The translations under genes were made by a program, and so were the position numbers. This document shows positions 17,148 to 52,870 of a stretch of DNA of 64,000 bases, in pieces. The DNA is from Taibaiella sp. (lineage in GTDB: Bacteria > Bacteroidota > Bacteroidia > Chitinophagales > Chitinophagaceae), in NCBI GenBank assembly GCA_013815385.1, contig JACDGL010000006.1, forward strand, positions 1-64,000, given 5' to 3'. Positions within the stretch are counted from its first letter, which is position 1. Each line of letters opens with the position of its first letter. The notes beneath the pieces are model-generated. The model did no database searches and was not told the DNA's origin. It saw only the letters and a list, made by a program, of their open reading frames with translations.

Positions 17148-19034
17148 ATGACGAAGAACAGACAAATGTGGGAACAACATCTTGAAGCCTCTCAGCGTAT
17201 AGCGCGCTTAGGTAGTTGGGAAATAGACCTCACCTTGCCTGACGATACTCCCGGCGCGTGGTTTACATCAGATGAGACCTATAGGATATTACAAGTGGAT
17301 AAGGATGAATGTGAATTGAACAGCACATTATTTTACGCGCGGGTACACCCTGACGATGTGGGTTCGTTGAAAGAAAAACTATACTCCACACTTAAGGAAC
17401 GCAGCCAGTTCGAGGCGCAGCACCGCATAGTATGGCCTGACGGCACGGAGCGGGTAGTATATGAGCGCGCGGAAATTGAGTATGACGAGACCAGCGGCAG
17501 GGGAATAAAGATGATAGGCACGCTACAGGATATTACCGAACGGGTAATGGCAGAGAACAGGCTGAAGGAAGCGAATAAAGAGCTGAGCATGCTATTTGCC
17601 AATATGCAGGAGGTGTACTATTCTGTAGACCTTACGAAGCAGAGGCACATACAGGTATCTGATGCCTGCGAAAAAGTATACGGCTACACGGCAGAAGATT
17701 TTCTGAATAACAACAACCTTTGGATAGATGTAGTATTGCCCGAAGACAAGCATATATTGTATGATAATTTTCCGGCCATGGCTTTAGGTAAGCCTTTCTC
17801 ACAGGCATATCGTATACGCCACAAGAACGGAGAGATACGCTGGCTGGAATCCCGATTGAGCCCTACGCTTAACGCAGATGGCCTGCTGGTACGACTGGAT
17901 GGGGTAACAACAGATATAACGGAAAGCAAGAATGCGGAGCAGGTGCTAATGAAAAGCGAAAGTAAATTTCGCTCACTGATCCAGAACAGTTCAGATGCCA
18001 TAACGGTAATAGATGCAAATGAGAAGATGATATTTGCAAGCGATTCGCTTTACCGTATTACCGGCTTTACAGAAGAAGAAACAATGGGGACGGATAGTAT
18101 TATTTTTATGCATCCCGATGATAGGCCCGGAGCAGTTAAGATCAAGGAATATATATTAACCCATCCGGGAGTGACGAGGGAATACACCTACAGGCGATTA
18201 AAAAAAGACGGCACCTACCTTTGGGCAGAAATCCTGATAACAAATATGATCGATGACCCCGCTGTAGCCGGAATAGTTATTAACTTCCGCGACATCACTG
18301 AATGGAAAAACCAACAAGACGAACTGCGGGCATTGAACATAGAACTAAAAAAATCGAATAAGCAACTGGATAGTTTTGTATATAGTATATCTCACGATCT
18401 GCGTTCTCCAATTACCTCCATGCTGGGCATACTGAACCTGGCAGAAATGGATACAAATGATGCAGAATTACTTTGCAAGCTCTCTATGCTAAGGGATTGC
18501 AATACGCGTCTCGATCACTTTATACAGGATATATTTACTTTCTTCCGTAATGCACGCACAGAGGTAACATTAGAGCGTGTAGCGCTTGACGAAATGCTTA
18601 ATGAAGTAGTAGGTGATCTGCGTACGGTGTATGCTGCTGATCTCGAAAACAAAAAGCTGCGTATAGAGACCAATGTGCGTGGAGCGGACAAATTACATTC
18701 TGATAAAGGGAGAATAAGAGTAGTGCTTAATAAACTGATAGCAAAAGCAATACGATATGCCGACCATAAAAAAACCGATCCTTGTATTGAAGTAACGATA
18801 AGTGTAAATGAAAAAGGGGCAGAAATATTAATTAAGGATAACGGTATAGGAATAGCAGAAGAGCACCACCTGAAAGTGTTTGAAATGTTTAGCCGGGTAT
18901 CTAAAAAATCCATAGGCTCAGGCCTGGGGCTTTATATAGTGAAGGAGACAATAATGAAGCTGAAAGGAAGTATAGAGCTAAGATCGGGTTTAGGGAATGG
19001 CGCAGAATTTCATATCTTTCTCCCGCAGATGTAA
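17148..19034 (+). CDS. PAS-domain sensor histidine kinase (cytosolic), N-box abnormal
   Basis: A 628-residue soluble kinase with no membrane segments. Three PAS/PAC units lie at about 10-132, 145-260 and 270-388, followed by a HisKA domain with phospho-acceptor His416 (SISHDLRSP) and a HATPase domain with G1 DNGIGI (564-569) and G2 GSGLGL (590-595). The N-box reads VLNKLIAKAIRY, with Lys529 and Lys533 at the two conserved Asn positions; the second Asn normally binds Mg-ATP. Autokinase activity may therefore be weak or absent. It is followed, after 28 nt, by a single-domain response regulator that is its likely partner. The signal sensed is unknown. Confidence 0.9.
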   Translation: MTKNRQMWEQHLEASQRIARLGSWEIDLTLPDDTPGAWFTSDETYRILQVDKDECELNSTLFYARVHPDDVGSLKEKLYSTLKERSQFEAQHRIVWPDGTERVVYERAEIEYDETSGRGIKMIGTLQDITERVMAENRLKEANKELSMLFANMQEVYYSVDLTKQRHIQVSDACEKVYGYTAEDFLNNNNLWIDVVLPEDKHILYDNFPAMALGKPFSQAYRIRHKNGEIRWLESRLSPTLNADGLLVRLDGVTTDITESKNAEQVLMKSESKFRSLIQNSSDAITVIDANEKMIFASDSLYRITGFTEEETMGTDSIIFMHPDDRPGAVKIKEYILTHPGVTREYTYRRLKKDGTYLWAEILITNMIDDPAVAGIVINFRDITEWKNQQDELRALNIELKKSNKQLDSFVYSISHDLRSPITSMLGILNLAEMDTNDAELLCKLSMLRDCNTRLDHFIQDIFTFFRNARTEVTLERVALDEMLNEVVGDLRTVYAADLENKKLRIETNVRGADKLHSDKGRIRVVLNKLIAKAIRYADHKKTDPCIEVTISVNEKGAEILIKDNGIGIAEEHHLKVFEMFSRVSKKSIGSGLGLYIVKETIMKLKGSIELRSGLGNGAEFHIFLPQM

Positions 19035-19062
19035 AACATTTGCTTTAAAAACGAACGCTATT

Positions 19063-19464
19063 ATGCTGGCAGACCATGTGAAAAAAGTACTCGTAATAGA
19101 TGATTCGGAGGTAGACCGGTTTATTGCTGAGCGGGTAATGAAAAAAAGCGGCTTTGCAGATGAGATAGTTACCATCAACGGAGGCCAAGATTCATTGGCC
19201 TATCTATTATCGTTTGATGCAGACCCATCCGGCCTGCCCGAACTGATATTCCTGGATATAAGGATGCCGGAGATGGATGGGTTCGAATTTCTGGACCGAT
19301 TTATATCGTTGCCGGAAAACATTATAAAAAACATAACAGTGGTAATGCTTTCCTCATCCACTCATCCTGATGACCAAAGGAGAGCAAAAGAAATATCTTG
19401 TGTAAAAGGGTTCATAGATAAGCCCATCAGCCAGGATAAATTACAGCAGATGATGACGGGCTAA
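19063..19464 (+). CDS. Single-domain response regulator (Rcp/CheY-like)
   Basis: A 133-residue receiver domain without an output domain. Acidic pocket: VLVIDDSEVD. Phospho-acceptor: LIFLDIRMPEMDG. Switch Ser/Thr: VVMLSSSTHP. Conserved Lys: GFIDKPIS. The ATG at 19063 is chosen because 22 additional upstream codons (from 18997) overlap the kinase gene and are not receiver-like. It is co-oriented with, and 28 nt after, the PAS kinase, so it probably receives phosphate from that kinase or relays it to another protein. Long insertions between the acidic and Asp blocks resemble Rcp1-type regulators. Confidence 0.9.
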   Translation: MLADHVKKVLVIDDSEVDRFIAERVMKKSGFADEIVTINGGQDSLAYLLSFDADPSGLPELIFLDIRMPEMDGFEFLDRFISLPENIIKNITVVMLSSSTHPDDQRRAKEISCVKGFIDKPISQDKLQQMMTG

Positions 19465-19489
19465 TCTATTCGTTTCCCATTAGTAAGCA

Positions 19490-20080
19490 TTATTTATTCC
19501 ATACTATTCGGTCTGTAATGGGTGTAGCTCTTTTTCCTTCACGTGCCGGCTCATCGGTATAGCCCAGGTATAGCAGGCCCATTACCATATCATGCTCTGC
19601 GAGTTGCAGGTGTTGGTGCAGCGCTTTGTGATGTGTAAATCCGCCGCTGCTCCAGAAAGAGGCTATACCCATAGCCGTAGCACCAATTAAAATATTTTGT
19701 ACAGCAGCAGCGCACGCTGCTATTTCTTCCAGTAAAGGTATTTTAGGATTTTCGCCACGCTTCATTACCGCTATTACCATGTGCGATGCTTGCCCCATTG
19801 CTTGCTGTAGCTTTGCATATGTTTCAGGGTTATAAGTTTCAGCGGGTGTATGGGTCTTATGCAGTTCAGCATGTTCGGTGCCAAAATCGATGAGCGACTG
19901 ACCGGTGTAAATAATGAAATGCCACGGCTGGGTACGGCCATGTGTAGGCGCCCAGTTAGCCAACTCCAGCAGGGCATCCATATTTTCCTGCGAAATTTTG
20001 TTGCCATTCATAGAGGCAGCCTTTGTGCTGCGCCGTTCTTTTATAACCGCGCTTACTGTTTCAAATTTATTATGTGCCAT
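19490..20080 (-). CDS. Nitroreductase-family flavoprotein
   Basis: A 196-residue protein of the FMN-dependent nitroreductase fold: ERRSTK near the N-terminus (flavin-phosphate binding), ANWAPTHGRTQPWHF, and the C-terminal IGATAMGIASFWSSGG and LLYLGYTDEPAREGKR blocks. These enzymes use NAD(P)H to reduce nitro-aromatics, quinones or flavins; the substrate here is unknown. An ATG at 20110 would extend the frame by 10 codons, but a promoter (TTTG at 20118-20115, 20 nt, GATATTTG at 20094-20087) puts the transcript start almost on the ATG at 20080, so that start is preferred. Confidence 0.88.
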   Translation of the reverse strand: MAHNKFETVSAVIKERRSTKAASMNGNKISQENMDALLELANWAPTHGRTQPWHFIIYTGQSLIDFGTEHAELHKTHTPAETYNPETYAKLQQAMGQASHMVIAVMKRGENPKIPLLEEIAACAAAVQNILIGATAMGIASFWSSGGFTHHKALHQHLQLAEHDMVMGLLYLGYTDEPAREGKRATPITDRIVWNK

Positions 20081-20086
20081 AGCGCG

Positions 20087-20118
20087 CAAATATCGCTTAG
20101 TAATACCCAACCAGCAAA
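20087..20118 (-). promoter_or_regulatory. Promoter of the nitroreductase gene, near-leaderless
   Basis: Minus strand: TTTG (20118-20115), 20 nt, GATATTTG (20094-20087; one mismatch to TAnnTTTG), six bases before the ATG at 20080. Confidence 0.6.
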
Positions 20119-20130
20119 TGATAAAATGAA

Positions 20131-20159
20131 AAGAGCCGTTCCTGAGTGGAACGGCTCTT
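20131..20159 (-). terminator. Rho-independent terminator of the tyrosine-rich T9SS protein gene
   Basis: Perfect 12-bp stem AAGAGCCGTTCC / GGAACGGCTCTT with a 5-nt loop. Read on the minus strand it is followed by TTCATTTTAT and lies 23 nt after the stop at 20182. Confidence 0.85.
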
Positions 20160-20181
20160 AATAATATTTAATGAGTATTAA

Positions 20182-21615
20182 TTAATGTGCTACTGTAAAG
20201 AGCTTAGTAAGATCCCCATGCTCACCGGCTACACGTATCAGGTAGTTACCGGCAGGGTATTGTGATACAGAAAGACTGTTGTGCGATGCAGTGCCTGTAT
20301 TAGCCTTCCACTGGCTCCATACACGGCCGCTCATATCGTATATAGAAATAGTGGCAGATTCTGCATTGTCCCATGTCAGGTCTATATTCACCAGATTAGA
20401 GCCCGGGCAGGGATATACTTTGATCAATCCGGTTGTTTTGGCAACGTTAGGGGTGTTGACTGTGATAGTCTGGTAATAATACTTGTTTCGGCTATCATTA
20501 ATTGCCGATTCATAAAAGCCGCCGCTTCCAGAACCTGCGTTCCAGGTGCCTGTGGCATAATAAGAGATCGTACCGTCAGCATTGTAAGAAGCAGTATCTC
20601 TTCCTAAAGGACTCCAGGGTATAGTGCTACCGGATGTATACTTATTAATATCTGTACGTGTTTGCAACCCGGTGCTATTATAAGCGTAAGCATAAGCATA
20701 GTAATTAACCCAAGTGCTGGTCATGCCGCTCCATGATCTGCTACTATCGAGTAAAAGCACCGAACCTGCATATGTATAGGTGTGGTATGTATTATTAACC
20801 CATGCAGTGCCGGACATGTTCCTCCTTTTAAAGGTATCAGCTATCGTGTGATAGCTGCCATCGTATTTATACAGGTCTTCAGAAGAATAATACCAGGTAG
20901 TACCAAAATATCCGTAGGTAATCGTTGAATCTGGTTTAAAACCCGCATTCAGATAGTATTTAACCTGTGTATTGTTCTTATAGCTACTACTAGATGTACT
21001 GTAGGTTTGGTACACATACATGGTGATGTTGTTATGCGTATCGTATGTATAAGTATACAGATAACCCCTGTTGCCATTATTAAAGTTGGTAAATGTATCG
21101 GTAAGCACATTGCCTGAAGCATCATAGGTATAGCCGCTTCTGTTACTATCTATCCATGTAGAAGCAGCCCAGACTGAATAAACAGACTTAGTGATCCTGT
21201 TCCCGGCATCATATGCATAGGCATATCTGTACGCATTATTCCAGGTTTTTGCGCCGGTATCATAATTTTGAGTAATAGCTGCGGTAAGGTTAGTACTGCC
21301 ATCATAGGAAGCAGATGTACGGGTAATGTAGTTTGGTTTCAGAAGTGCAACACTAGTACCGAGCCATCTTATATAGGTAGCAGAGTCATATTTCCCCTGA
21401 TAAGTCCAGTTGTTATAGGAAAGTGTACCTGTATTTACTTCTAAACCTGTATGCGCGCCTGAGTATACGTATTGTAATGAGTCACAATGGACCCAGAAAG
21501 TGCCGGTTATGCCTCCTGTATCTCTTTCAGAAGCGATAAGCCTTGTAACTGTTTGTGCATTGCTAGCCAAAGTGCCAGCCAGAAGGGTTGCAGTGAGTAA
21601 AAATTTTAGTTTCAT
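20182..21615 (-). CDS. Tyrosine-rich secreted protein with T9SS type A sorting domain
   Basis: A 477-residue protein with a signal peptide (1-20, cleavage near SNAQT). The body is strikingly rich in Tyr, Thr, Ser and Asn, with repeated YAYAYDAGN / YTYDASGN / YTYTYDTHNN units reminiscent of YD or RHS-like beta-strand repeats. The last 75 residues are a T9SS type A sorting domain (VYPCPGSNLVNIDL, YDMSGRVW, GNYLIRV, ending LFTVAH); the usual YPNP is YPCP here. It is predicted to be exported to the cell surface. It is monocistronic with its own terminator at 20131. Function is unknown. Confidence 0.87.
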   Translation of the reverse strand: MKLKFLLTATLLAGTLASNAQTVTRLIASERDTGGITGTFWVHCDSLQYVYSGAHTGLEVNTGTLSYNNWTYQGKYDSATYIRWLGTSVALLKPNYITRTSASYDGSTNLTAAITQNYDTGAKTWNNAYRYAYAYDAGNRITKSVYSVWAASTWIDSNRSGYTYDASGNVLTDTFTNFNNGNRGYLYTYTYDTHNNITMYVYQTYSTSSSSYKNNTQVKYYLNAGFKPDSTITYGYFGTTWYYSSEDLYKYDGSYHTIADTFKRRNMSGTAWVNNTYHTYTYAGSVLLLDSSRSWSGMTSTWVNYYAYAYAYNSTGLQTRTDINKYTSGSTIPWSPLGRDTASYNADGTISYYATGTWNAGSGSGGFYESAINDSRNKYYYQTITVNTPNVAKTTGLIKVYPCPGSNLVNIDLTWDNAESATISIYDMSGRVWSQWKANTGTASHNSLSVSQYPAGNYLIRVAGEHGDLTKLFTVAH

Positions 21616-21827
21616 AAATTACTAAATTATAGGTTTGAATAGTATTTAATTATTAAGAACGTGTAAGTTATGGATATTTTTTTTGAAATTATTAACATTT
21701 AGATAAAATTGGCGTTCATTGTTATTTCATCTGTTAACGCATTTTTGCTGAAAATAGCCTTATAAGAGAAACTGATAATCGAATTGCATGTAGGTACATA
21801 CATTTGTATTATAAAACATAACAAAAA

Positions 21828-22427
21828 ATGAAAAAAGTATTTATTCTTTCGCTGCTTGTATTAGCACAAGTGGCAGCAATTGCCCAAACCAAAGGCACAC
21901 CTATAAAGTGGAGCGTGGATGTAGCACATAGTAATGTGAAATTCTCTGTTACCCATCTTACCGTATCTACCGTAGATGGAACCTTCAAAATATTCAATGG
22001 TGAGGTAACTACAGTAAACAACGACTTTAACAACGCAAGCATCAACTATACTGTAGATGTAAAGAGCATTAATACCGATAACGAAAAACGTGACGGGCAT
22101 TTAAAAAGCGATGATTTCTTTAATGCAGAGAAATATCCTAATATGACATTTAGCAGTACCTCTTTCAAAAAAGTAAAAGGCAACGTATATAGCCTGGAGG
22201 GTAACCTGACAATAAGGGATGTAACTAAAAAGGTAAAATTTGCTGTTGTATATGGCGGAAGCGTTAAAGATCCCTATGGTAATACTAAAGCAGGGTTTAA
22301 GGCATCGGGCAAAATAAGCCGCAAAGCCTATAACCTGAAATGGAGCGCGCTTACAGAAGCGGGTGGTGCAGTAGTAGGTGATGAGGTAACCATCAATCTG
22401 AATATAGAATTACAAAAAGCAAAATAA
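21828..22427 (+). CDS. YceI-family periplasmic lipocalin-like protein
   Basis: A 199-residue protein: signal peptide (1-19, cleavage near AIAQ), then a single YceI beta-barrel domain. Family features include WSVDVAHSNVKFSVTHL, DGHLKSDDFFNAEKYPNMTF, LTIRDVTKKV and the closing GDEVTINLNIE. YceI proteins bind polyisoprenoid-like lipids in the periplasm. A TACATTTG -7 box lies at 21799-21806, 21 nt upstream of the ATG. Monocistronic, with a palindromic terminator after it. Confidence 0.93.
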   Translation: MKKVFILSLLVLAQVAAIAQTKGTPIKWSVDVAHSNVKFSVTHLTVSTVDGTFKIFNGEVTTVNNDFNNASINYTVDVKSINTDNEKRDGHLKSDDFFNAEKYPNMTFSSTSFKKVKGNVYSLEGNLTIRDVTKKVKFAVVYGGSVKDPYGNTKAGFKASGKISRKAYNLKWSALTEAGGAVVGDEVTINLNIELQKAK

Positions 22428-22455
22428 GAGTTTTTCATAAGGTGGTTTTAATAGG

Positions 22456-22479
22456 AATGGCGCTCATATGAGCGCCATT
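22456..22479. terminator. Bidirectional palindromic terminator
   Basis: Perfect palindrome AATGGCGCTCAT / ATGAGCGCCATT with T-rich sequence on the right (TTATTTTTAT). It lies between the convergent YceI and DUF4406 genes. Confidence 0.75.
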
Positions 22480-22529
22480 TATTTTTATGGTGGTAGGTGA
22501 TAGCCTTAAAACAGCTATCGAGAGATCGG

Positions 22530-22820
22530 TTAATGATATACAACATTCATACCCAGGCGTATTGCTATATCGCGTTCCAGCTGTGCACCGCGGCTTTCCT
22601 GCCAACAGGGTAGCAGATGAACCTCTTCGCAATCGAGCATATGACGAATATTTTCACGGGTTATATCTTCCCAGTTTGAGTTTTCCTGTTCCAGGTAGTC
22701 GGGGCTCACAACTTTATAACCTTTACCTGAAAGATCATTGGCTGCGCGACTGAATTTTTCTTTAACCTGGTGTTGCGGTAGCCCAGTCACTTTTCCCGCT
22801 ATGAATATTTTCTTGCCCAT
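22530..22820 (-). CDS. DUF4406 protein (nucleoside 2-deoxyribosyltransferase-like), phage-associated
   Basis: A 96-residue protein beginning KKIFIAGKVTGLPQ, with PDYLEQENSNWED and a HLLPCWQESRGAQLERDIA block. This is the DUF4406 pattern (Rossmann-like fold related to nucleoside deoxyribosyltransferases, with SRGA.lE.diA near the putative active site). Such genes are frequent in early regions of phages. It is the last gene of the minus-strand Mu-like early operon. Enzymatic activity is untested; nucleotide metabolism is inference. Confidence 0.85.
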   Translation of the reverse strand: MGKKIFIAGKVTGLPQHQVKEKFSRAANDLSGKGYKVVSPDYLEQENSNWEDITRENIRHMLDCEEVHLLPCWQESRGAQLERDIAIRLGMNVVYH

Positions 22821-22901
22821 ATAATTACGTTTAAACGATAATAAATTTCAGTACACCGGTCTTTTAAACAGTAATAAAACCGTTCCACGCCAAATTAAAT
22901 G

Positions 22902-23045
22902 CTACTGATCAAGAGCAGAGCTCCGGGTTTGCCAAATGGTAAGGAGGTTTATAGGGGCTGGCCGTTTGCGCTTATGCATACTGTGGAGATTACTGTAGAA
23001 AGTAATAAGCATATCGTGTTTCTTTTGCCTTCTGCTCTTTTTCAT
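22902..23045 (-). CDS. Possible small basic phage protein
   Basis: A 47-codon frame beginning MKKSRRQKKHDMLIT and ending ALDQ, strongly basic, located 25 nt after the Gam stop and on the same strand as the early phage operon. It fills the otherwise unexplained 250-nt gap between Gam and the DUF4406 gene. No homology was recognised; support is position and orientation only. Confidence 0.4.
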   Translation of the reverse strand: MKKSRRQKKHDMLITFYSNLHSMHKRKRPAPINLLTIWQTRSSALDQ

Positions 23046-23070
23046 GTAGTATATTTTAATGGTTATGTGT

Positions 23071-23589
23071 TTAGTTATCACTTCCGGTTTTCAAGGATAT
23101 GAAGAATAGGTCGTCCTGTATTACCTGCAGGCCTATACCGGGTAGCCGCATGGCTATATCTTCCCGGCTGCGGTCGTTAATAAGCAGGTCTTTCGCAGGC
23201 TCTTCCGTATTCCTTATATATTGGGGCAATTGTTCTTTCAGTTTTTCAATGGCGTGCTGCCAACTGATGCCGGGTATGGTAGCCAGCTTGGGCGTACCCA
23301 GCCTAAAGCCAAGTGTGCCATAAGCAGTATGTATGCTGCGGCGTGTGCTGAAAAGGGATTGCTTTTGCTCGCGGCAGTAAGTTTCTACCACAGCCAGGGC
23401 ATCGGTCTTTTTGCGGGTGAGGAATGTAAGCTCGCCGGAGTACTTATTCTTTATTAACTCCATTTCAGATGCCAGCTTGTTATTGATCTCTTCTTCGCGC
23501 AGGTGGGCATTCGCATAGCGTGCCAGCGCTTCATCAAACTGGGCAGATGTGATGTATTCGGGAATTTTCTTACTGATTCTTTTAGACAT
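23071..23589 (-). CDS. gam: Host-nuclease inhibitor protein Gam (Mu-like)
   Basis: A 172-residue protein, close to the 174 of phage Mu Gam. It has an N-terminal helical pair (YANAHLREEEINNKLASEME), and the Gam core FRLGTPKLATIPGISW, PQYIRNTEEPAKDLL and a C-terminal beta hairpin (GIGLQVIQDDLFFIS). Mu Gam binds DNA ends as a Ku-like dimer and protects them from host exonucleases. It sits in the minus-strand early operon behind MuB, the DnaA-like protein and a 111-residue protein, matching the Mu early-gene layout. Confidence 0.92.
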   Translation of the reverse strand: MSKRISKKIPEYITSAQFDEALARYANAHLREEEINNKLASEMELIKNKYSGELTFLTRKKTDALAVVETYCREQKQSLFSTRRSIHTAYGTLGFRLGTPKLATIPGISWQHAIEKLKEQLPQYIRNTEEPAKDLLINDRSREDIAMRLPGIGLQVIQDDLFFISLKTGSDN

Positions 23590-23613
23590 TTCTTTCAGGT
23601 TTATAGGTATAGT

Positions 23614-23949
23614 TTAGCAGGGAAGTTTATTGCTGTACTGGTCTATCTGCCCCAGCATGGCCTTTACGATAATGCTTGCGTATTTATCATGTTTCAGGCT
23701 AAGCACATCCCAGAGCTGGCGAAAGGCAACCGCCTCGGTGCCGCTCATATTCAGCGTATACAGGTCTTGCGAGCGCTGCATTTTTTTGGTTAGCTGCTGT
23801 TGCAGGTCGGCCAGGTAAGCACGCATCAGCTGCTCATGCTCGGTTTCGGGCTTCAGTTGCTGCAGCATATCGGTGCATACCGAGTGCAATGCCTCCAGCC
23901 GGTCGTGGTTGATGCGAATCTTAACAGCGCTGTTTAGTCTTTTAGCCAT
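23614..23949 (-). CDS. Hypothetical phage early protein
   Basis: A 111-residue, all-helical, soluble protein (LNSAVKIRINHDRLEAL, YLADLQQQLTKKMQ, LWDVLSLKHDKYASI). No motif was recognised. Its start overlaps the end of the DnaA-domain gene by 16 nt, and the Gam gene starts 24 nt after its stop, so it is an integral member of the early operon. Helical composition suggests a DNA- or protein-binding accessory role, which is inference. Confidence 0.75.
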   Translation of the reverse strand: MAKRLNSAVKIRINHDRLEALHSVCTDMLQQLKPETEHEQLMRAYLADLQQQLTKKMQRSQDLYTLNMSGTEAVAFRQLWDVLSLKHDKYASIIVKAMLGQIDQYSNKLPC

Positions 23950-24356
23950 TTGGTAACAGTATTTAGTGCTTTGTAGTATTTGCCGGTAAAGGTGGGCTCA
24001 TTGGTATCCAGCAGGTTGCTGGCACGGGTTACGCCATTGATGATAGACGTGTGGTCTTGTCCCCCGTACATTGCTGCTATCTGCATCAGCGTAACGCGTG
24101 GGTAGAACTTGCGAAGAAGCAGTGAGCTGAGAAAACGCAGCTCTACCACCTCGCGTTTTCGTGTTTTTTCTGTAAAGCAGTCGGCGCACATGCCCAGTGC
24201 GTTGGCTATTGTTTGCAGCATCTGCTGCGGGCCTTTACGGTCTTCTGTAGTGCACAGCATCACCTTTATGCGCATGCCTGTAGTTGTCTTTATTTGCTTT
24301 TCGGCTGCACGGGCTATATGCCTCGCTGCATTGATCTGTGTGGTTGCATAGTTCAT
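23934..24356 (-). CDS. Phage protein with stand-alone DnaA domain IV (DNA-binding)
   Basis: A 140-residue protein. Residues about 1-58 are a helical extension. Residues 64-110 match DnaA domain IV, the DnaA-box-binding helix-turn-helix: TRKREVVELRFLSSLLLRKF, then the signature block YGGQDHTSIINGV (98-110; DnaA GGRDHTTVxHA). The AAA+ module is absent. The protein could bind DnaA-box-like sites to regulate phage or host replication. It lies between MuB and a small hypothetical gene in the early operon, an unusual addition to the classical Mu set. Confidence 0.85.
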   Translation of the reverse strand: MNYATTQINAARHIARAAEKQIKTTTGMRIKVMLCTTEDRKGPQQMLQTIANALGMCADCFTEKTRKREVVELRFLSSLLLRKFYPRVTLMQIAAMYGGQDHTSIINGVTRASNLLDTNEPTFTGKYYKALNTVTKWLKD

Positions 24357-24394
24357 AATTTACCTCCCGGTTATTTTTTGATAGGACTTATTAT

Positions 24395-25246
24395 TTAGCT
24401 ACCTGATTGGAGGCGTGCGGCATGTATCAGCGATGTAGCGTGATGCAAGCTGCCACGGCAGGTATCCTTTATTTCAGTTATTGTTGCTTCGTTGGTAACT
24501 CCATTGGCGCGGCATACTACTTCCACATCGCGCGGGCCCAGCTGCCCCAGTGTTATAAAGCGGCGGCCTATCGCATTGTATAGTTCCTGGTGCAGTTCCT
24601 TGTTCAGCCTTGCGCCTTCTACCACGCGGCTGCGTAGTTCATCGCTGCCCAGTATTATGATGCCGCATTTATTAATCAGCGTTTTGTAAAGCAGTGCGGC
24701 AAAATGCAGCGCCCTGTCCTTCAGCTTATGGGCATCATCTATTATTATCAATGGTTCTTCCTGTGCGCCAAGCAGCGCTGTTACCTGGGCCAGGCTGGCT
24801 TCTGCCGATCTGCTGGTATTACCTCCGGCTATTTTTATGAGTGCATCCAGCAGGCCCTTTCGGTTCATCTGTTCATTGCAGGCTATGTAGTGTGCATTGG
24901 CATGTTCCTTTGCGTAATACTTTGCTGTGTAGGTTTTGCCCAGCCCGCTGCCTATAGCTACGCCATAAGCCATGGCATAGCGTTGTGCATCGCCAAACAG
25001 GATGCGCAGCAATAAGTAAGGCCCGGTATCAGCCTGTTTCCACTCTTCTGCACAATAGAAACCTACCTGCCGGGCTATATGCTGCCAGGTGCGCTCCGTT
25101 ATCTTTTCCCACCGATCGTTCTTCAGCAGCGATAAGGTAGTGGCGCTTACATCGTCCAGGCTCTCTGCGGCTTCTTTTTGGGTTGCAAAGCCTGCCGTAT
25201 AGCGCAGCAGCGCATCCCTGATTTGTTCTTTCTGTTCATTAGTCAT
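24395..25246 (-). CDS. MuB-like AAA+ ATPase (transposition target-DNA activator)
   Basis: A 283-residue protein. The N-terminal ~60 residues are a helix-turn-helix region (TQKEAAESLDDVSATTLSLL). The ATPase core has Walker A GSGLGKTYTAKYYA (Lys104, Thr105), Walker B PLIIIDDAHKL (Asp170) and a sensor-1 block IIILGSDELRSR. This is the organisation of phage Mu B and IS21 IstB relatives, which bind target DNA and activate the transposase. It is the first gene of the minus-strand early operon. No MuA transposase is found before it or anywhere else in the window. Confidence 0.88.
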   Translation of the reverse strand: MTNEQKEQIRDALLRYTAGFATQKEAAESLDDVSATTLSLLKNDRWEKITERTWQHIARQVGFYCAEEWKQADTGPYLLLRILFGDAQRYAMAYGVAIGSGLGKTYTAKYYAKEHANAHYIACNEQMNRKGLLDALIKIAGGNTSRSAEASLAQVTALLGAQEEPLIIIDDAHKLKDRALHFAALLYKTLINKCGIIILGSDELRSRVVEGARLNKELHQELYNAIGRRFITLGQLGPRDVEVVCRANGVTNEATITEIKDTCRGSLHHATSLIHAARLQSGS

Positions 25247-25276
25247 AAATTTGCTCCAGTTTTAAGGTTACAATTG

Positions 25277-25320
25277 AGCCACATACTTCCCCACGAAGTG
25301 TGTGGCTTTTTCTTTTTTTA
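25277..25320 (+). terminator. Strong hairpin with T-run in the MuB 5' leader (plus orientation)
   Basis: AGCCACATACTTC / GAAGTGTGTGGCT: a 13-bp stem (one G-T pair), CCCAC loop, followed on the plus strand by TTTTCTTTTTTTA. Read this way it terminates rightward transcription; read on the minus strand it is a leader hairpin 31 nt before the MuB ATG. Confidence 0.7.
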
Positions 25321-25356
25321 TTTAGTACAGATAATAGGGTCGTAAAATAATTTTGT

Positions 25357-25462
25357 CCAAAAATTTGGCATAAATGTTTTTATTTTTAACTTTGATGTCG
25401 TAAAGCTAAGAATTCGACACAAAAATATTCCAAAATATCTGTCAATTCCAATTTTTGTGGAA
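25357..25462 (+). promoter_or_regulatory. Phage repressor promoter and candidate operators
   Basis: TTTG at 25364-25367, exactly 19 nt, then TAACTTTG at 25387-25394: a perfect Bacteroidota promoter for the S24 repressor. The -33 box is embedded in the inverted repeat CCAAA-AA-TTTGG (25357-25368). A second inverted repeat, TTCCA-7-TGGAA (25446-25462), lies in the leader, and TTCCAAAATAT lies between. These are the obvious candidates for repressor binding. Confidence 0.65.
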
Positions 25463-25481
25463 AAATAAATAGGGAAATTTT

Positions 25482-26270
25482 ATGGGACATTTAGCCGTTA
25501 ATCTGAAACAATTAAGGAAGCGTTCGGGCAAAACGCAGGATGCGCTTAGCACAGAGCTAAATATAGGCAGAACGACCATTGCCAATTATGAGGCAGGGGT
25601 CAGCGAACCAAATGTGGATACGCTACTCACATTTGCCAAGTATTTTGGAGTTTCGGTAGATGAGCTTTTAGGCAGTGCGTTGCCGACTAATGCAAAAGTG
25701 GTGGCGATAGCCCATAAAGCGATCTATGAAGGAGCGCCAAAGGTAATAACGGTAGACAGGGAAGGCAATGATAATATCTTATATGTGCCTGTGAAAGCAC
25801 GCGCGGGGTACCTGCTTGGCTATGGCGATCCGGAATTTATAGAAACACTGCCTACCTTTCGACTGCCGGGATTAAATAACAGCACCTTCCGCATGTTTGA
25901 GGTGAAAGGCCCATCTATGGCGCCCAATGTGCTGCATGGCGACCGCATAATAGGGGAATGGATAGAGGGCTTTGATAAGATACGCGACAACCGCGTGCAT
26001 GTGATAGTGCATAATGGTGGTGTGATGGTAAAGCGATTGCTGAATAGAATAAAAGAGCGCGGCAAGATATACCTGAAATCGGACACGATAGCGCACCGTC
26101 ACGAATTTCCTACAATAGAGATAGACCCCGATGATGTAAAGGAGATATGGTATGGCCGCCTGAAGATCAGCGGCGACTTCAGTGAACCGGCAGAAGTGTA
26201 CCACCGCCTCGCCGACCTGGAACTGGACATGATGGATATGAAGAAGATGCTAAAGGACGGGAAGGAGTGA
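25482..26270 (+). CDS. XRE-HTH / S24-peptidase phage repressor (CI/LexA-like)
   Basis: A 262-residue repressor. Residues 5-62 are a Cro/CI helix-turn-helix (LRKRSGKTQDALSTELNIG, then RTTIANYEAG). The C-terminal S24 autoprotease has an Ala108-Gly109 cleavage site (KARAGYLLGYGDPEF), nucleophile Ser145 (GPSMAPNVLHGD) and general-base Lys184 (VMVKRLL). It would hold the divergent MuB operon silent and be inactivated by RecA-stimulated self-cleavage. It is transcribed divergently from that operon across a 235-nt control region. All key residues are intact. Confidence 0.92.
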   Translation: MGHLAVNLKQLRKRSGKTQDALSTELNIGRTTIANYEAGVSEPNVDTLLTFAKYFGVSVDELLGSALPTNAKVVAIAHKAIYEGAPKVITVDREGNDNILYVPVKARAGYLLGYGDPEFIETLPTFRLPGLNNSTFRMFEVKGPSMAPNVLHGDRIIGEWIEGFDKIRDNRVHVIVHNGGVMVKRLLNRIKERGKIYLKSDTIAHRHEFPTIEIDPDDVKEIWYGRLKISGDFSEPAEVYHRLADLELDMMDMKKMLKDGKE

Positions 26271-26370
26271 GGTAGGTGATAGTGGCAACAAGGATGCACT
26301 CTTGTACCGGAGCAAATGGAAAGCAACCGCAAATATTCAGCCCTGTTAAGCCCCTTTAGGGGTTTGGGGT

Positions 26371-26378
26371 TATCTTTG
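26371..26378 (+). promoter_or_regulatory. -7 box of the mutL promoter
   Basis: Perfect TATCTTTG, 17 nt before the GTG start. Just upstream is a CCCC-TTTA-GGGG hairpin (26351-26362). No good -33 TTTG was found at 19-21 nt. Confidence 0.55.
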
Positions 26379-26395
26379 CGCAAACCTTATTAGCG

Positions 26396-28222
26396 GTGCC
26401 GGATATAATCCATTTATTATCAGACCATATAGCCAACCAGATAGCGGCGGGCGAGGTAATACAGCGCCCGGCATCGGCGGTGAAGGAACTGATGGAGAAC
26501 GCAATAGATGCTGGCGCCACGGAGATACAACTGGTAATAAAGGATGCCGGTAAAGAGCTGATACAGGTAATAGATAACGGCAAGGGCATGAGCACTACTG
26601 ATGCCCGTATGAGCTTTGAGCGCCACGCTACCTCCAAGATACGCGACATCAACGACCTCTTTAAGATACGCACTATGGGTTTCCGCGGCGAGGCGCTGGC
26701 AAGCGTAGCCGCTGTAGCGCAGGTGGAAATGAAGACCTGCCTGCACGATAGTGAAATAGGCACCCACATAATAATAGAAGGTACAGAAGTGAAGCTGCAG
26801 GAGGCGTGCGCCACGCCGGCCGGTACCAATATAATGTTGAAGAACCTGTTCTTCAACGTACCGGCGCGCAGGCACTTTCTTAAAAGCAACACTACAGAGT
26901 TCAGGCATATAGTAGATGAGTTTACCCGCATAGCGCTTGCCCACCCGCACATTACCTTTCGCCTGTGGCACAATGGCGCGGAGCAATACAACCTTGCGGC
27001 AGGTAACCTGAAGACGCGCATTGTAAACCTGCTGGGCACATCGTACGAAAAGAACCTGGTACCTGCCAAGGAGCAGACCGACCTGTTAAATATATACGGC
27101 TTCATAGGCAAGCCTACCGCAGCTACCCGCACCCGCGGCATGCAGTTCTTCTTTATCAATAATCGGTTTATCCGCAACGCATACCTGCACCATGCGGTTA
27201 CTGCCGCATACGAAGGGCTGATAGAAAAAGAAGCATTCCCTTTTTATGTGCTCTTCCTGGAGGTGGATCCGGCGCGTGTAGATGTGAATGTGCACCCCAC
27301 CAAGCAGGAGGTGAAATTTGAAGACGACCGGTTGATGTATGCGTACCTGAATGCTGCCGTAAAGCATGCACTGGCAAGGTTCAATATAGCCCCGTCGCTC
27401 GACTTTACGCTAAACCCCGAAGTGCAGCACCTATCATCTATACAGGTACCTGCCGATGATGCGCAACGCACCCAGACACAGAATAGCTATCTCTTTAATG
27501 CCTTTTCGCAAAAAGGGCAGGCACACCTGATAGAGCCTACTGATAGCCTGAAACACTGGAAGGAATTATACGCCATAGCCCAACTACCGGCAACCGATGC
27601 AACATTGCAGACAGAACAACAACCACTGCATGCCGAGCAGCCAATGGCGGCTGCCAATGCCGGCAATAACGTGCTGCTGGTGCAGGGCACTATGCTGCTC
27701 ACTACCATAAAATCGGGCATCATGCTGATACACATACGCCGCGCGCAGGAACGCATATGGTATGAGCGCCTGCTGGAAGAATGGAATAACGGCACTACTG
27801 CATCGCAGCAACTGCTCTTCCCGGTATCTTATGAATTGCCGCCGCAGGATGCCCCGCTGCTGACTAATGTATTGCCCGAACTGGCAAGGATAGGATTTGA
27901 TATAGCGCCCTTCGGGCAGCATACATTTGCAGTGCAGGGTGTACCTGCTGCGCTGCCCGCGGGTGAAGAAAAGAATGTCCTGGATGAAGTAGTGGAGCAA
28001 TTGAAAAATGAATCGAACGATGCGGTTGGCAACCGTGCAGATAAGCTGCTGATACATATGGCCCGCCGCCTAAGCCGCAATCGCCACGCCATACAGCAAC
28101 CCGAAGGCCAGCAAGCCCTGATAGACGAATTATTCGCCTGTACCCAACCCGAATACACACCGGATGGTAAAAAGGTTTTTACGCTACTGCGGAAAGAGGA
28201 GTTGGATGGGATGCTGGGGTAG
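26396..28222 (+). CDS. mutL: DNA mismatch repair protein MutL
   Basis: A 608-residue GHL ATPase. The N-terminal motifs are all present: ELMENAIDAG (about 31-40), DNGKGM (60-65) and GFRGEALASV (95-104), plus VDVNVHPTKQEVKF in the transducer domain. Translation starts at GTG 26396; an in-frame TAG lies just upstream. In the C-terminal dimerisation domain the endonuclease metal motif DQHA(X)2E(X)4E reads HIRRAQERIWYE (446-457): the Asp, Gln and His are replaced although both Glu remain. Nicking activity may therefore be reduced or differently configured. It is independent of the phage repressor gene that ends 125 nt upstream. Confidence 0.95.
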   Translation: MPDIIHLLSDHIANQIAAGEVIQRPASAVKELMENAIDAGATEIQLVIKDAGKELIQVIDNGKGMSTTDARMSFERHATSKIRDINDLFKIRTMGFRGEALASVAAVAQVEMKTCLHDSEIGTHIIIEGTEVKLQEACATPAGTNIMLKNLFFNVPARRHFLKSNTTEFRHIVDEFTRIALAHPHITFRLWHNGAEQYNLAAGNLKTRIVNLLGTSYEKNLVPAKEQTDLLNIYGFIGKPTAATRTRGMQFFFINNRFIRNAYLHHAVTAAYEGLIEKEAFPFYVLFLEVDPARVDVNVHPTKQEVKFEDDRLMYAYLNAAVKHALARFNIAPSLDFTLNPEVQHLSSIQVPADDAQRTQTQNSYLFNAFSQKGQAHLIEPTDSLKHWKELYAIAQLPATDATLQTEQQPLHAEQPMAAANAGNNVLLVQGTMLLTTIKSGIMLIHIRRAQERIWYERLLEEWNNGTTASQQLLFPVSYELPPQDAPLLTNVLPELARIGFDIAPFGQHTFAVQGVPAALPAGEEKNVLDEVVEQLKNESNDAVGNRADKLLIHMARRLSRNRHAIQQPEGQQALIDELFACTQPEYTPDGKKVFTLLRKEELDGMLG

Positions 28223-28250
28223 AATAAGTATATTTATCTAAAGGTCTATT

Positions 28251-28880
28251 ATGAAATACGCTTTGTATTTGTTGCTTGCCTTTCATTCATTAAGTGTAAC
28301 AGGGCAGGTTGCGATACAAAATGATAAGGAGAATGGATATTATCTTGGAATACCCACCCATGTAACAATAGCAGCTAAAAATTATTCATGTGAAGATTTA
28401 ATTATTTTAATAGATAGCGGAATAATCACAAAAGATGTAAATACCTGCGAGTATTACATTACAGCTTATAAACCAGGAGAATTACGAATAAAAATAGAAG
28501 AAAGAAAAACGCATAAAGTGCTCTGTGAGAAGCGATTCAGGGCTAAGTACATGCCGTTGCCTACTCCAATGGTGGGAGGGAGAAATAGAGGTAAAATATC
28601 TAAAAAATATTTAGAAAACCTACCAGGTTTATTTGCTGTGTATCCGAATATTGAAATTGATTCTCGGTTTATTATAACTGCTTTCACTGTTATTATTTTA
28701 AGAGACAATCGAGTATTATTTATTAAAGATTACTCTGGTGCAAAGTTTGAAGAAAGCGTATTTAGTGCCTTTCGGACAATGAAAAAAGACGATAAATTAT
28801 TTTTTGTAAGTATTCAATGCAAAGGGCCTGCTAGTGAATTAAGCGATATGCCATCGATGGAGTTTATAATTACTGATTGA
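28251..28880 (+). CDS. Secreted protein resembling a stand-alone GldM C-terminal domain
   Basis: A 209-residue protein with a signal peptide (1-18, cleavage near VTGQV). The mature part follows the GldM C-terminal pattern: NDKENGYYLGIPTHVTIAA, a Gly-rich Ig-like strand set, KRFRAKYMPLPTPMVGG..RGKIS, then FIITAFTVI and a final FFVSIQCKGP segment. In GldM this region forms the periplasmic shaft of the T9SS motor, which contacts GldK/N. Here it lacks the inner-membrane helix and the D1/D2 domains. It follows mutL by 28 nt but is more AT-rich. A role as a T9SS accessory is inference. Confidence 0.7.
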   Translation: MKYALYLLLAFHSLSVTGQVAIQNDKENGYYLGIPTHVTIAAKNYSCEDLIILIDSGIITKDVNTCEYYITAYKPGELRIKIEERKTHKVLCEKRFRAKYMPLPTPMVGGRNRGKISKKYLENLPGLFAVYPNIEIDSRFIITAFTVIILRDNRVLFIKDYSGAKFEESVFSAFRTMKKDDKLFFVSIQCKGPASELSDMPSMEFIITD

Positions 28881-29031
28881 TATATTCATCCGCTCTCCAT
28901 TGTCCGCCGCTCCCATTCCGTTATAACTTTTCCAATGTGGATATCTTCTTTTGGAAATAGCCTGCCAGGCATAGTACATTGCATGTGGTAGTTCTTTCTC
29001 TTATTGTTTTAATAATGTTATTGAACATTTA

Positions 29032-29289
29032 GCCATTGCGCTTTGGTCTTCAAACTTCCATTTTCACTTCAAAGTTCCGGTGGAAGTTTCAGCAGTAAAC
29101 CCGCCACAGGCAATCGTATAACCTTTTACCTTAACGGAAATTAGCGGAAGTTTGAGCCATTGAGCCATTGCGCTTTTGGTTTTCCATACTTCCATTTTCA
29201 CTTCAAAGTTCCGGTGGAAGTTTCAGCAGTAAATCCGCCACAGGCAATCATATAAACTTTTACCATAACGGAAATTACCGGAAGTTTGA
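29032..29289. repeat. Tandem direct repeat, two copies of about 125 bp
   Basis: Copy 1 (29032-29155) and copy 2 (29164-29289) are nearly identical, both starting GCCATTGCGCTTT and ending CGGAAGTTTGA. Each contains a small inverted repeat, ACTTCCA...TGGAAGT. Together with 28881-29031 this makes up the 500-nt intergenic region between the GldM-like gene and paaE. Reading frames here are short and overlap the repeats, so I regard it as non-coding. Confidence 0.85.
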
Positions 29290-29352
29290 ACAATTATGTA
29301 CTCCTTTAAGGGCGGGAGGTTTGACAGCGCTATTAACCCATTCCAAATTTGT

Positions 29353-29360
29353 TACCTTTG
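29353..29360 (+). promoter_or_regulatory. -7 box of the paaE promoter
   Basis: Perfect TACCTTTG, 19 nt before the ATG at 29380, predicting a 5' leader of about 15 nt. Its position rules out the longer frame that would start at 29296. Confidence 0.6.
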
Positions 29361-29379
29361 CACCCGCATTTATTATCAT

Positions 29380-30465
29380 ATGTCTGTACCCAGGTTCTAT
29401 TCATTAACGGTAAAAGAGGTTCGTCCGGAAACGGCTGATTGTGTATCTGTGGCGCTGGAAGTGCCTGAAGAACTGGTAGAAGCATTCCGGTATGCGCCCG
29501 GGCAATACCTGACCTTTAAAAAGCATGTGGCTGATGCAGAGATACGCCGCAGCTATTCTATATGCAGCAGCCCTAATGACAAAGAGCTGCGCGTAGCTAT
29601 AAAAAAAGTACGCGAAGGTAAGTTCTCCACCTTTGCCAACGGCGACCTGAAAAAAGGCGATGTACTGGATGTGATGACACCTATGGGGAAATTTACACCT
29701 AAGGAAGGCGTAGCGCATAAGCAATACCTGGGCATAGCGGCGGGCAGTGGCATAACGCCTATCATGAGTATTATGAAGGCGCTGCTGGAGAAAGATAACG
29801 AAAGCAGCTTTACCCTGATATTTGGCAACCGCAGCCGCAATACGGTCATCTTCCGCGAAGCGATAGAAGCGCTGAAGAACCGGTATATGAACAGGCTACG
29901 CCTCTTTCATATACTGAGCAGGGAGTTTATGGACGTGCCATTGTTCAATGGCAGGATAGATGCCGCCAAGATCGAAGAATTTGCAAAGAAACTAATAGAT
30001 ATACCCGCTATAGATGAAGCATTTATCTGCGGCCCGGAAGAAATGACCATTGCCACCAAAAAACAGCTGGTGGACCTTGGAATGACACCAGGGCATGTAC
30101 ACATAGAAATATTCACATCGCCCGACCAGCCGAAGGCAACACATGAAAAATGGGTGGCCGAACATGCAGCAGATAACGGCCCCGTGAGCAAGGTAAGCGT
30201 GACGCTGGATGGCACTACGTTTGATATGGACCTGGCCTATAACGGTGAAAGCATTCTGGATGCAGCCCTGAGAAACGGCGCCGACCTGCCCTATGCTTGC
30301 AAGGGCGGTGTATGCAGCACCTGCCGTGCTAAAATAACCAAGGGAGCAGTAGATATGGAAGTGAACTATGCCCTTGAGGAAGATGACGTAGCTAAGGGTT
30401 TTGTACTTACCTGCCAGAGCCACCCTACGACAGAAAGGGTAGTAGTAGATTTTGATGCCCGATAG
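29380..30465 (+). CDS. paaE: Phenylacetyl-CoA epoxidase reductase subunit, ferredoxin-NADP reductase type
   Basis: A 361-residue three-domain electron-transfer protein. The FAD domain has RRSYSICSSP, the NAD(P)H domain has GIAAGSGITPIMSI and FICGPEEM, and the C-terminal plant-type [2Fe-2S] ferredoxin domain has ACKGGVCSTCRAKI plus LTCQS (four cluster cysteines). This order matches PaaE (PaaK), which feeds electrons to the PaaABC oxygenase. The start at 29380 (MSVPRFYSL) is set by a TACCTTTG box at 29353. PaaABC is not in the window; a paaG-like gene is at 12515. Other class IA-like reductases are the alternative. Confidence 0.88.
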   Translation: MSVPRFYSLTVKEVRPETADCVSVALEVPEELVEAFRYAPGQYLTFKKHVADAEIRRSYSICSSPNDKELRVAIKKVREGKFSTFANGDLKKGDVLDVMTPMGKFTPKEGVAHKQYLGIAAGSGITPIMSIMKALLEKDNESSFTLIFGNRSRNTVIFREAIEALKNRYMNRLRLFHILSREFMDVPLFNGRIDAAKIEEFAKKLIDIPAIDEAFICGPEEMTIATKKQLVDLGMTPGHVHIEIFTSPDQPKATHEKWVAEHAADNGPVSKVSVTLDGTTFDMDLAYNGESILDAALRNGADLPYACKGGVCSTCRAKITKGAVDMEVNYALEEDDVAKGFVLTCQSHPTTERVVVDFDAR

Positions 30466-30473
30466 CTTTCAGT

Positions 30474-30869
30474 TTATTCAATATCCTTACGGCGCATTTG
30501 CTTTTTGTAGGAGTCTATTTGCTTGCTCTCCAGCCTCCGTTCGCGCGCAGCCTTTGATGGCTTGGTAGCTATACGCTTCTTTGGTTTTATAAGACTTTGC
30601 GCTACCAGTTCATTCATACGCTCCTGCGCTATCTGTTTATTCTCCAGCTGAGAGCGAGTATAGCTGCTCTTTACCAACAGGTAGCCGTCTTTATTTATAC
30701 GGCTGGCCAGTTTGTTTTGGATCAGTTCTTTTTGCTCCGGAGTAAAGAATATAGACTCAGCAGGCAGCCACCACGCCTCAGCGCGCGTTTCTACCTTGTT
30801 CACGTTCTGGCCGCCTTTGCCACCGCTCCGGGTGGTCCTAAAAAATATTTCTGAAGAAAAATCCTTCAT
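30474..30869 (-). CDS. arfB: Alternative ribosome-rescue factor / peptidyl-tRNA hydrolase ArfB
   Basis: A 131-residue protein with the class I release-factor motif GGQ at residues 19-21 (RSGGKGGQNVNKVETR). The C-terminal tail is highly basic and Gln/Lys-rich (KPSKAARERRLESKQIDSYK), which in ArfB/YaeJ inserts into the empty mRNA channel of stalled ribosomes. It hydrolyses peptidyl-tRNA on non-stop complexes. Length matches the family (about 140). It converges on paaE with 8 nt between the stops. Confidence 0.93.
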   Translation of the reverse strand: MKDFSSEIFFRTTRSGGKGGQNVNKVETRAEAWWLPAESIFFTPEQKELIQNKLASRINKDGYLLVKSSYTRSQLENKQIAQERMNELVAQSLIKPKKRIATKPSKAARERRLESKQIDSYKKQMRRKDIE

Positions 30870-30931
30870 AGCAGATGCAAAAGTAATAAAGGTATTTTGA
30901 AGCTGTTTCTTTCCTTATTTTTATAATAGCA

Positions 30932-31789
30932 ATGAACAGGATAAAGGGTATAGCCATATTGGTAAGCATAGGTTTCTGCGCAATAATGCAGGGCGGCAAC
31001 TGGAGTATGTCGTTATGTTTAGTTGCTGTATTGCTCGGTATTTACGGGCTTGTGTTATTGATAAACGGTGGTACACAAAAAGTAAGAACCTTCATTAACA
31101 GCAACTATGCCTGTCTGGCAGATGCAGCATTGATGGCATTATGGATATGGGCAACAGGCGGCTATGTATCACCATACTATATCCTCTTTTACATCTTTAT
31201 AGGGGTGGTTGCCTACCGGCTGGAGGCATGGATGGTAATAGGTATTTCACTGCTCTATGTTTTATCTTATGTAGGGTTATTGTTTTCGCTGCATACACCA
31301 CAAATACACCTGCCGGAAATACTGTTGCGGTGCAGCTATATATTCATTAGCGGAGTGATGGTGTGGATGGTAAAGAAAGAGATTTTCCGCCAACCGCTGC
31401 TACAGGATCAGATAGACGCGCTACAGCAACAGATACATGAGTGCAATGTAACAATAGAGCAACGGCACCAGACCATAGAAGAGCTGGACGAAACCATAAA
31501 GAATACCGTACAGCAGCGCCTGCAGGAAATGGAGGACCGTGTAAAGGAAATAACTACCAACCTGGAGCAAAAGCACTACACAGTATATACCAATGTGCGC
31601 GCCCTGAAATTGCTACTAAAGGATATAAAAGAACATACTGCACTGGTAAGCCAATCGCTACGCTCGGACGAGTATGAAGGGGCAGCGATATTTGCCCGTA
31701 AGGCACAAGAGCAGCTTAACACACTCGAGGAAATGATGCGGGTGCTTACTGATAAGCTGAAGGCAGCAGGTGTAAACAGTATTGATTGA
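30932..31789 (+). CDS. Polytopic membrane protein with C-terminal coiled coil, function unknown
   Basis: A 285-residue protein. Residues 1-150 hold five or six hydrophobic helices, including SMSLCLVAVLLGIYGLVLLI and WMVIGISLLYVLSYVGLL. Residues about 155-225 form a long coiled coil (QIDALQQQIHECNVTIEQR and following), and the remainder is helical. The layout resembles the membrane and dimerisation part of a sensor kinase, but there is no His-box or ATPase domain. The stop codon lies inside a 16-bp perfect hairpin (31781-31825). A structural or signalling role is speculation. Confidence 0.75.
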   Translation: MNRIKGIAILVSIGFCAIMQGGNWSMSLCLVAVLLGIYGLVLLINGGTQKVRTFINSNYACLADAALMALWIWATGGYVSPYYILFYIFIGVVAYRLEAWMVIGISLLYVLSYVGLLFSLHTPQIHLPEILLRCSYIFISGVMVWMVKKEIFRQPLLQDQIDALQQQIHECNVTIEQRHQTIEELDETIKNTVQQRLQEMEDRVKEITTNLEQKHYTVYTNVRALKLLLKDIKEHTALVSQSLRSDEYEGAAIFARKAQEQLNTLEEMMRVLTDKLKAAGVNSID

Positions 31790-49147: not shown

Positions 49148-49148
49148 A

Positions 49149-51224: not shown

Positions 51225-51254
51225 TCACTTCATATTTATTCAATTATTAAATAT

Positions 51255-52190: not shown

Positions 52191-52202
52191 TTAGCAATAA
52201 AT

Positions 52203-52868: not shown

Positions 52869-52870
52869 AT

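Follow-up and report, generated by a model that had tools for sequence, protein, structure and literature searches.

What becomes of the early-control region of a Mu-like phage when the gene for its transposase is no longer there? The 64,000-nucleotide stretch of Taibaiella sp. DNA analysed here (contig JACDGL010000006.1, positions 1 to 64,000; hereafter the window) raises this question at 22530-26270, where the gene for an S24 repressor lies divergent from an operon that encodes a MuB-like ATPase, a DnaA domain IV-like protein, a conserved 111-residue protein (orf111), a Mu Gam-like protein and a DUF4406 protein, without MuA. Sequence comparison suggests, with a probability that we put at roughly three in four, that the repressor of a Mu-like phage has become the LexA-like SOS repressor of one bacterial clade and has kept MuB and Gam as damage-induced genes. 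The further claim that this transposable-phage repressor displaced an older SOS repressor of CTAA-N5-TTAG in that clade and brought the MuB-Gam operon with it, with the MuB filament and Gam now acting as SOS effectors, we regard as evenly balanced.

Predicted operators at the phage operon and at SOS genes

Comparison of 36 loci that carry this module revealed a 17-bp palindrome in the gap between S24 and MuB, with the consensus TTCCAAATAATTTGGAA (about TTCCA-N7-TGGAA). The motif model, palindromic by constraint, was seeded from sites picked by eye and then trained on the very gaps that it scored, the window's included; upstream start codons shortened some of these regions. With this self-trained model, 109 segments of at least 7 bits were found in the real gaps compared to a mean of 2.5 in 50 shuffles. 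Exactly three such sites occur in 28 gaps, four in four, two in three and one in one, and the usual spacing is 18 bp from O1 to O2, with O3 about 75 bp further. In the window the predicted operators are O1 (TTCCAATTTTTGTGGAA, 25446-25462, 19.3 bits), O2 (TTCCAAAATATCTGTCA, 25428-25444, 15.7 bits) and O3 (TGTCCAAAAATTTGGCA, 25354-25370, 15.4 bits). O2 is directly upstream of TATTTTTG (25420-25427), a sequence match to TAnnTTTG, which we take to be the -7 element of Bacteroidota promoters and propose as that of the MuB operon. The same element, reading towards MuB, lies just after the O2 position in 36/36 gaps; O2 scores less than 7 bits in L011 and, in L082, lies beyond the region taken (L and G numbers denote our loci and genomes). 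An operator-like site, O4 (TGCCAAGTATTTTGGAG, 25634-25650, 14.9 bits), falls inside the S24 coding region. Sites of this type (at least 11 bits, within nucleotides 60-320 of the gene) are present at 34 of the 36 loci, where 8.0 are expected under synonymous shuffling; for the window alone, 8% of synonymous shuffles score as well. S24 may bind O1-O3, and perhaps O4 in its own gene, and in doing so would repress both itself and the MuB operon.

Sites matching the predicted operator motif also precede SOS genes at other places in the genome, a feature absent from the original prediction; the promoters of these genes were not in the training set of the model. From a loose motif scan of eight module genomes, 20 regions were picked by eye among the matches listed. 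In the window's genome a pair of sites lies 39 and 91 bp upstream of recA and another pair upstream of a Y-family polymerase, while G276 carries a pair upstream of imuA-imuB and G121 a site upstream of a Y-family polymerase. Scoring covered the upstream regions of 68 of the 75 IMS-family matches in 30 genomes, four DinB-like genes outside the clade (G009, G018, G031, G035) and three fragments or second pieces being set aside; the threshold of 11 bits (9 bits for recA) was chosen after the scores at the S24-MuB gap had been seen, and the 12 outside genomes were hand-picked relatives without a MuB match. Sites of at least 11 bits precede imuB, in imuA-imuB, at 7/10 loci of module genomes compared to 0/6 outside, and umuC-type genes at 14/17 compared to 0/10, against a background of 4 sites per 140 kb. 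Removal of the discovery loci leaves 6/9 for imuB (Fisher p 0.028) and 12/15 for umuC-type genes (p 0.0001). DinB-type genes have such sites at 2/13 module loci and 0/12 outside, and sites of at least 9 bits precede recA in 9 of 16 module genomes and one of 12 others.

The older motif shows the opposite distribution at two of these genes. CTAA-N5-TTAG is published as the SOS motif of the Chitinophagaceae, as described in the main text of PMC8565304. An exact copy is found upstream of recA in 8 of the 12 outside genomes compared to none of 16 module genomes (G033 and G224, which have no DNA upstream of recA, were dropped from this count), and upstream of imuB at 4/6 outside and 0/10 module loci; the corresponding counts for DinB-type genes are 1/12 and 0/13. 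The winged-helix domain of canonical LexA (LexA_DNA_bind, PF01726) is over the cut-off in none of the 26 module genomes, compared to 9 of 14 control genomes. Evidence for replacement of the older repressor, as opposed to a change of motif within the same lineage, is indirect.

Origin and descent of the MuA-less block

MuA is missing from the module wherever we could look. None was found within the available DNA of the 36 module loci. The Pfam family DDE_2 matched in no control genome and was hence uninformative as a test for MuA; a MuA profile built from five rows was used instead, and it matched nothing in the window and nothing in 19 of 23 module genomes, for only three of which completeness is given. 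The original prediction of a Mu-like early-control module without MuA is therefore borne out, with MuB, Gam and the divergent repressor present and the transposase absent at the 36 loci. It had also proposed a search for MuA in the rest of the genome, and here the answer was positive: the window's genome, one of the four with a match, has one MuA on another contig (G000:C28:123609-125687). This gene belongs to a separate Mu-like early region (L034 13709-20000, G000:C28:122236-128527), which encodes a MuA of 692 residues, MuB, a DnaA-domain protein and orf111, runs to near the contig end and has a repressor about 50% identical to the window's S24.

Such MuA-bearing early regions point to a probable source of the repressor. 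In a repressor tree with three imuAB-linked S24 proteins as outgroup, a quick search with long branches, the 36 module repressors form one clade (support 98), and its sister group (97) is made up of three repressors from MuA-bearing early regions, including the one in the window's genome. Other MuA-linked repressors fall outside both groups; therefore the module repressors nest among MuA-linked ones. Among viral contigs with a related S24, MuA lies beside the repressor in 13/17. A MuB search of viral contigs confirmed no relative.

Of 394 genomes belonging to the window's family, 26 contain the block of S24 repressor and divergent MuB-DnaA-domain-orf111-Gam(-DUF4406) without MuA. This figure comes from the 38/394 genomes with a MuB match at E <=1e-30, whose flanks, read as far as the contigs reach and tallied by hand, show the MuA-less block in 26, MuB beside MuA only in 11 and an unclear arrangement in one (G323); within the 26, MuB scores are weaker for G286 and G320, and contig ends truncate G429 and G033. 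In each of 22 loci from genome contigs, some of the same species as some of the 26, S24 and MuB are divergent neighbours that no MuA separates; the records of these loci name Flavipsychrobacter, Taibaiella, Chitinophagaceae or (uncultured) Bacteroidetes; the module is present in Flavipsychrobacter stenotrophus RB1R16 (L022). In the genus of G324 the module's MuB occurs in 30 of 35 genomes (best match at least 379 bits) and in 23 of the 25 of good quality, a count resting on the MuB match, with flanks read only for genomes known earlier. The DnaA-domain protein is found at 34 of the 36 loci, the other two being cut by contig ends, orf111 at 31, and Gam at 30, two of them as weak fragments only. 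Two copies, L103 (G320) and L097 (G286), stand out for the divergence of their MuB (179 and 277 bits), with S24 still at 509 and 479 bits.

The block bears a signal of vertical descent and of purifying selection. Within a 56-row MuB tree, a branch with support 100 separates the 35 MuA-less rows from 18 MuA-linked and three unclassified ones. Distances correlate with those of MutL in Mantel comparisons across 22 genomes (r 0.81 for MuB, 0.73 for the DnaA domain and 0.60 for S24; p 0.001 each) and, for Gam, across 18 genomes (r 0.49, p 0.001); the 22 are those of the 26 module genomes left after exclusion of G320 (diverged MuB), G429 (cut MuB), G382 (no MutL match) and G033 (MutL in two pieces). 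The ratio of nonsynonymous to synonymous rates (dN/dS) is <=0.23 for every computable value among 13 pairs, three values being lost to saturation of synonymous sites. Part of the copies also share a chromosomal neighbourhood, with PhoU and a GNAT-type gene accompanied by phosphate-transport genes on the S24 side in 7/36 module loci and a DNA photolyase on the far side in 11/36; the window's own locus has neither. The comparison across relatives that had been suggested thus revealed constraint and no near-neutral decay. Because the MuA-less MuBs form one clade that spans several genera and is under purifying selection, the recent deletion offered as one interpretation is rejected, and the locus is neither a dying prophage nor the product of such a deletion. 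The idea of a domesticated regulatory or DNA-protection island has in contrast gained support. We propose that the block was once the early region of a transposable, Mu-like phage and has been domesticated; MuA would have been lost from it, most simply once, in an ancestor of a clade of Chitinophagaceae-like bacteria, with the remainder passed on vertically.

A phage repressor as the proposed LexA, and the alternatives

On this proposal, operators of the same sequence would have arisen or been selected in front of genes for error-prone polymerases of the host (umuC-type, imuA-imuB) and, in the window's genome, recA, allowing the repressor to work as the clade's LexA. DNA damage would then lead RecA filaments to trigger self-cleavage of S24 at its Ala-Gly site, which would derepress the polymerases and, with them, the old phage operon. 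Judging from their families, we infer that the MuB filament, the end-binding Gam and the DnaA-domain protein could coat, protect or help replicate damaged DNA; Mu Gam reportedly promotes end joining. If true, the locus is a direct snapshot of a phage repressor turning into LexA, and MuB, Gam and the DnaA-domain protein are candidates for new SOS effectors. The main text of PMC8565304 puts forward that control of host SOS genes passes step by step to the repressor of a disrupted prophage, a route by which canonical LexA may also have arisen. The module would be such an intermediate in preserved form: the repressor has kept its operators and its phage operon, host polymerase genes already carry matching sites, and CTAA-N5-TTAG is absent at recA and imuB.

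Phage-like SOS repressors are already known in Bacteroidetes, but our literature searches turned up none that remains joined to a Mu early operon. The non-canonical LexA of Bacteroidetes (Sanchez-Osuna et al. 2021, PMC8565304) likewise combines an HTH_3 (CI-type) domain with an S24 domain bearing Ala-Gly and Ser-Lys, has palindromes not only at its own gene but also at recA and SOS polymerases, in many cases two or more to a promoter (for the module, predicted from sequence), and is suspected of phage origin. It differs in its motif, CTAA-N5-TTAG or GGA-N5-TCC compared to about TTCCA-N7-TGGAA, of which we scanned CTAA-N5-TTAG; the module's S24 is moreover still divergent from a Mu-like early operon and has MuA-linked repressors as its nearest relatives in our tree rooted on imuAB-linked S24 proteins. 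The main text of PMC8565304 never mentions MuB, and none of the titles and abstracts listed by our searches describes an S24 SOS repressor linked to MuB. FddR of Francisella (PMC13148647) and HdiR of Lactococcus (via PMC8565304) are also phage repressors co-opted for the DNA-damage response, from phage sources other than the module's. FddR too has a divergent target gene, although its core Francisella network is small and that gene is of unknown function, whereas the module's divergent genes are a Mu early operon. Among Bacteroidota Mu-like phages, Bacteroides phage p00 (BK010646) has a MuB 31.5% identical to that of the module. Related Mu-like early regions also place the repressor divergent from MuA-MuB, some with a DnaA-domain protein, orf111 or Gam, but the module differs in lacking MuA, in its chromosomal, vertical inheritance and in operators not common to the four regions examined.

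Several observations weigh against the proposed role of the repressor. The loose pattern is not enriched genome-wide, with 140 matches in the eight genomes compared to 133 for the reversed pattern (summed by hand). The umuC-type contrast is weaker than it looks, for 7/10 outside loci are distant paralogues (44-71 bits), which makes imuB, with outside copies of 439-538 bits, the fairer contrast. No site was found at three of the 17 umuC-type (G302, G224, G254) and three of the 10 imuB loci (G452, G280, G341) of module genomes, and CTAA-N5-TTAG shows no clear contrast at umuC-type genes (1/17 module, 2/10 outside). The evidence at recA is mixed, since several sites overlap a conserved AAAATGTGGATATC about 90 bp before the gene in several module genomes (e.g. 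L175, L177, L182), which may be something else; because of this overlap we dropped recA as main proof of a regulon. The AAAATGTGGATATC element resembles what we take to be a DnaA box, and the operon encodes a DnaA-domain protein. Few genomes of the family encode canonical LexA in any case, LexA_DNA_bind being over the cut-off in 2 of 28 other genomes, and the repressor of the CTAA motif was not found in relatives (no S24 match in the 1.2 of 3.3 Mb of G022 searched). As for the operon, one of the 30 genus matches (G465) has an in-frame stop in MuB, Gam is absent from three loci with room for it (L017, L087, L092), and DUF4406, present at 20/36 loci, is missing more often than Gam.

One alternative is that S24 controls only itself and a vertically inherited Mu early operon, and that another S24 protein with a similar motif binds the sites at the polymerases. 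G280 and G452 indeed carry a second S24 repressor divergent from imuA-imuB (L270 2273-3061 and L265 2261-3073, both without the module operator there), and several S24 paralogues with different palindromes are described as common in Bacteroidetes in the main text of PMC8565304. Yet the model, although built only from the S24-MuB gap, picks out promoters of polymerase genes in module genomes and has no match at those of the other genomes scored. In the window's genome, moreover, a search with the module's S24 gave just two such proteins, itself and the repressor of the MuA-bearing region; the S24-MuA gap of that region scores <=2.0 bits for the module operator. We therefore consider this alternative unlikely.

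The original prediction had also suggested a satellite using a transposase encoded elsewhere. Movement of a satellite or defective phage with a helper's MuA would suit the MuA found elsewhere in the window's genome and in 3/22 other module genomes, but not its absence by profile from the remaining 19/23, the agreement with MutL or the neighbourhoods common to part of the copies, and the suggestion, which is not supported by our data, appears highly improbable. The earlier interpretation is hence supported in part. Very improbable, too, is a host defence in which MuB and the repressor were kept to interfere with incoming Mu-like phages. Other members of the family, and viral contigs, do carry related Mu-like early regions; their S24-MuA gaps, however, reach at best 5.4 bits for the module operator in the four MuA-bearing early regions, so that the module repressor is not expected to repress those phages, and searches with PADLOC and NCBIfam returned nothing specific for the module, PADLOC matching only the helix-turn-helix (HTH) of the S24 protein. 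Slow, functionless decay of a remnant prophage would account for the stop in G465 and for the loci that lack DUF4406, Gam or orf111. It is contradicted by the selection data throughout the computed pairs, as well as by conserved palindromes and spacing and by the retention of MuB in most good-quality genomes of one genus, and we give it next to no weight.

Anatomy of the locus and its surroundings

All genes named in the original prediction are open and lie where it placed them, and the 235-nt gap, the Walker motifs and the S24 catalytic residues are likewise confirmed. The S24 repressor (25482-26270, plus strand) joins HTH_3 (PF01381, CI-type) to Peptidase_S24 (PF00717) and has the Ala-Gly cleavage site (KARAGYL) and the Ser/Lys dyad, patterns seen in 36/36 module S24 proteins. 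The other genes are all on the minus strand. MuB (24395-25246; PHROG 296, 'DNA transposition protein', E 2.1e-30) is an AAA+ ATPase with an N-terminal HTH and intact Walker A (GSGLGKT) and Walker B (LIIIDDAH) motifs. Its AlphaFold2 model has a predicted local distance difference test score (pLDDT) of 89.7, and its top PDB match is the ATP-DNA-MuB filament 8xvb (template modelling score 0.68/0.77, E 9.4e-10), followed by TnsC. The fold is thus like that of the MuB/TnsC target-selection ATPases, though the module's MuB is without a detectable transposase partner in 19/23 genomes.

The DnaA domain IV-like protein follows (23934-24356; PF08299, E 8.2e-10; signature GGQDHTS), and then orf111 (23614-23949), an open reading frame (ORF) that is also present in L034. 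The orf111 model is mostly helical (mean pLDDT 76.9), and a Foldseek search gave no match at E <=0.001; BIRC6, its best match by VIA-align (Z 9.5), was not used, there being no trusted fold match. Gam (23071-23589; PF07352, E 9.5e-24; PHROG 491) and the nucleoside 2-deoxyribosyltransferase-like DUF4406 (22530-22820; PF14359, E 8.3e-22; PHROG 355) are separated by a tentative small basic ORF with RRQKKHDMLITF (22902-23045, start chosen by hand). A similar ORF lies between the two genes in 10/12 loci examined, with a motif like RRQ-KHEMLLTFMAN in relatives, from which the C-terminus in the window differs.

Beyond the module, MutL starts at 26396, after the repressor, and a YceI gene occupies 21828-22427. 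The ten nearest window genes (17148-31789, module excluded) include these two, a ferredoxin-type reductase and an RF-1 domain protein, and none matched a structural or packaging PHROG. Further along the window, 48005-54182 is low in guanine plus cytosine (down to 28%) and holds genes that by eye resemble those for aminotransferases, methyltransferases and glycosyltransferases, perhaps a surface-sugar cluster.

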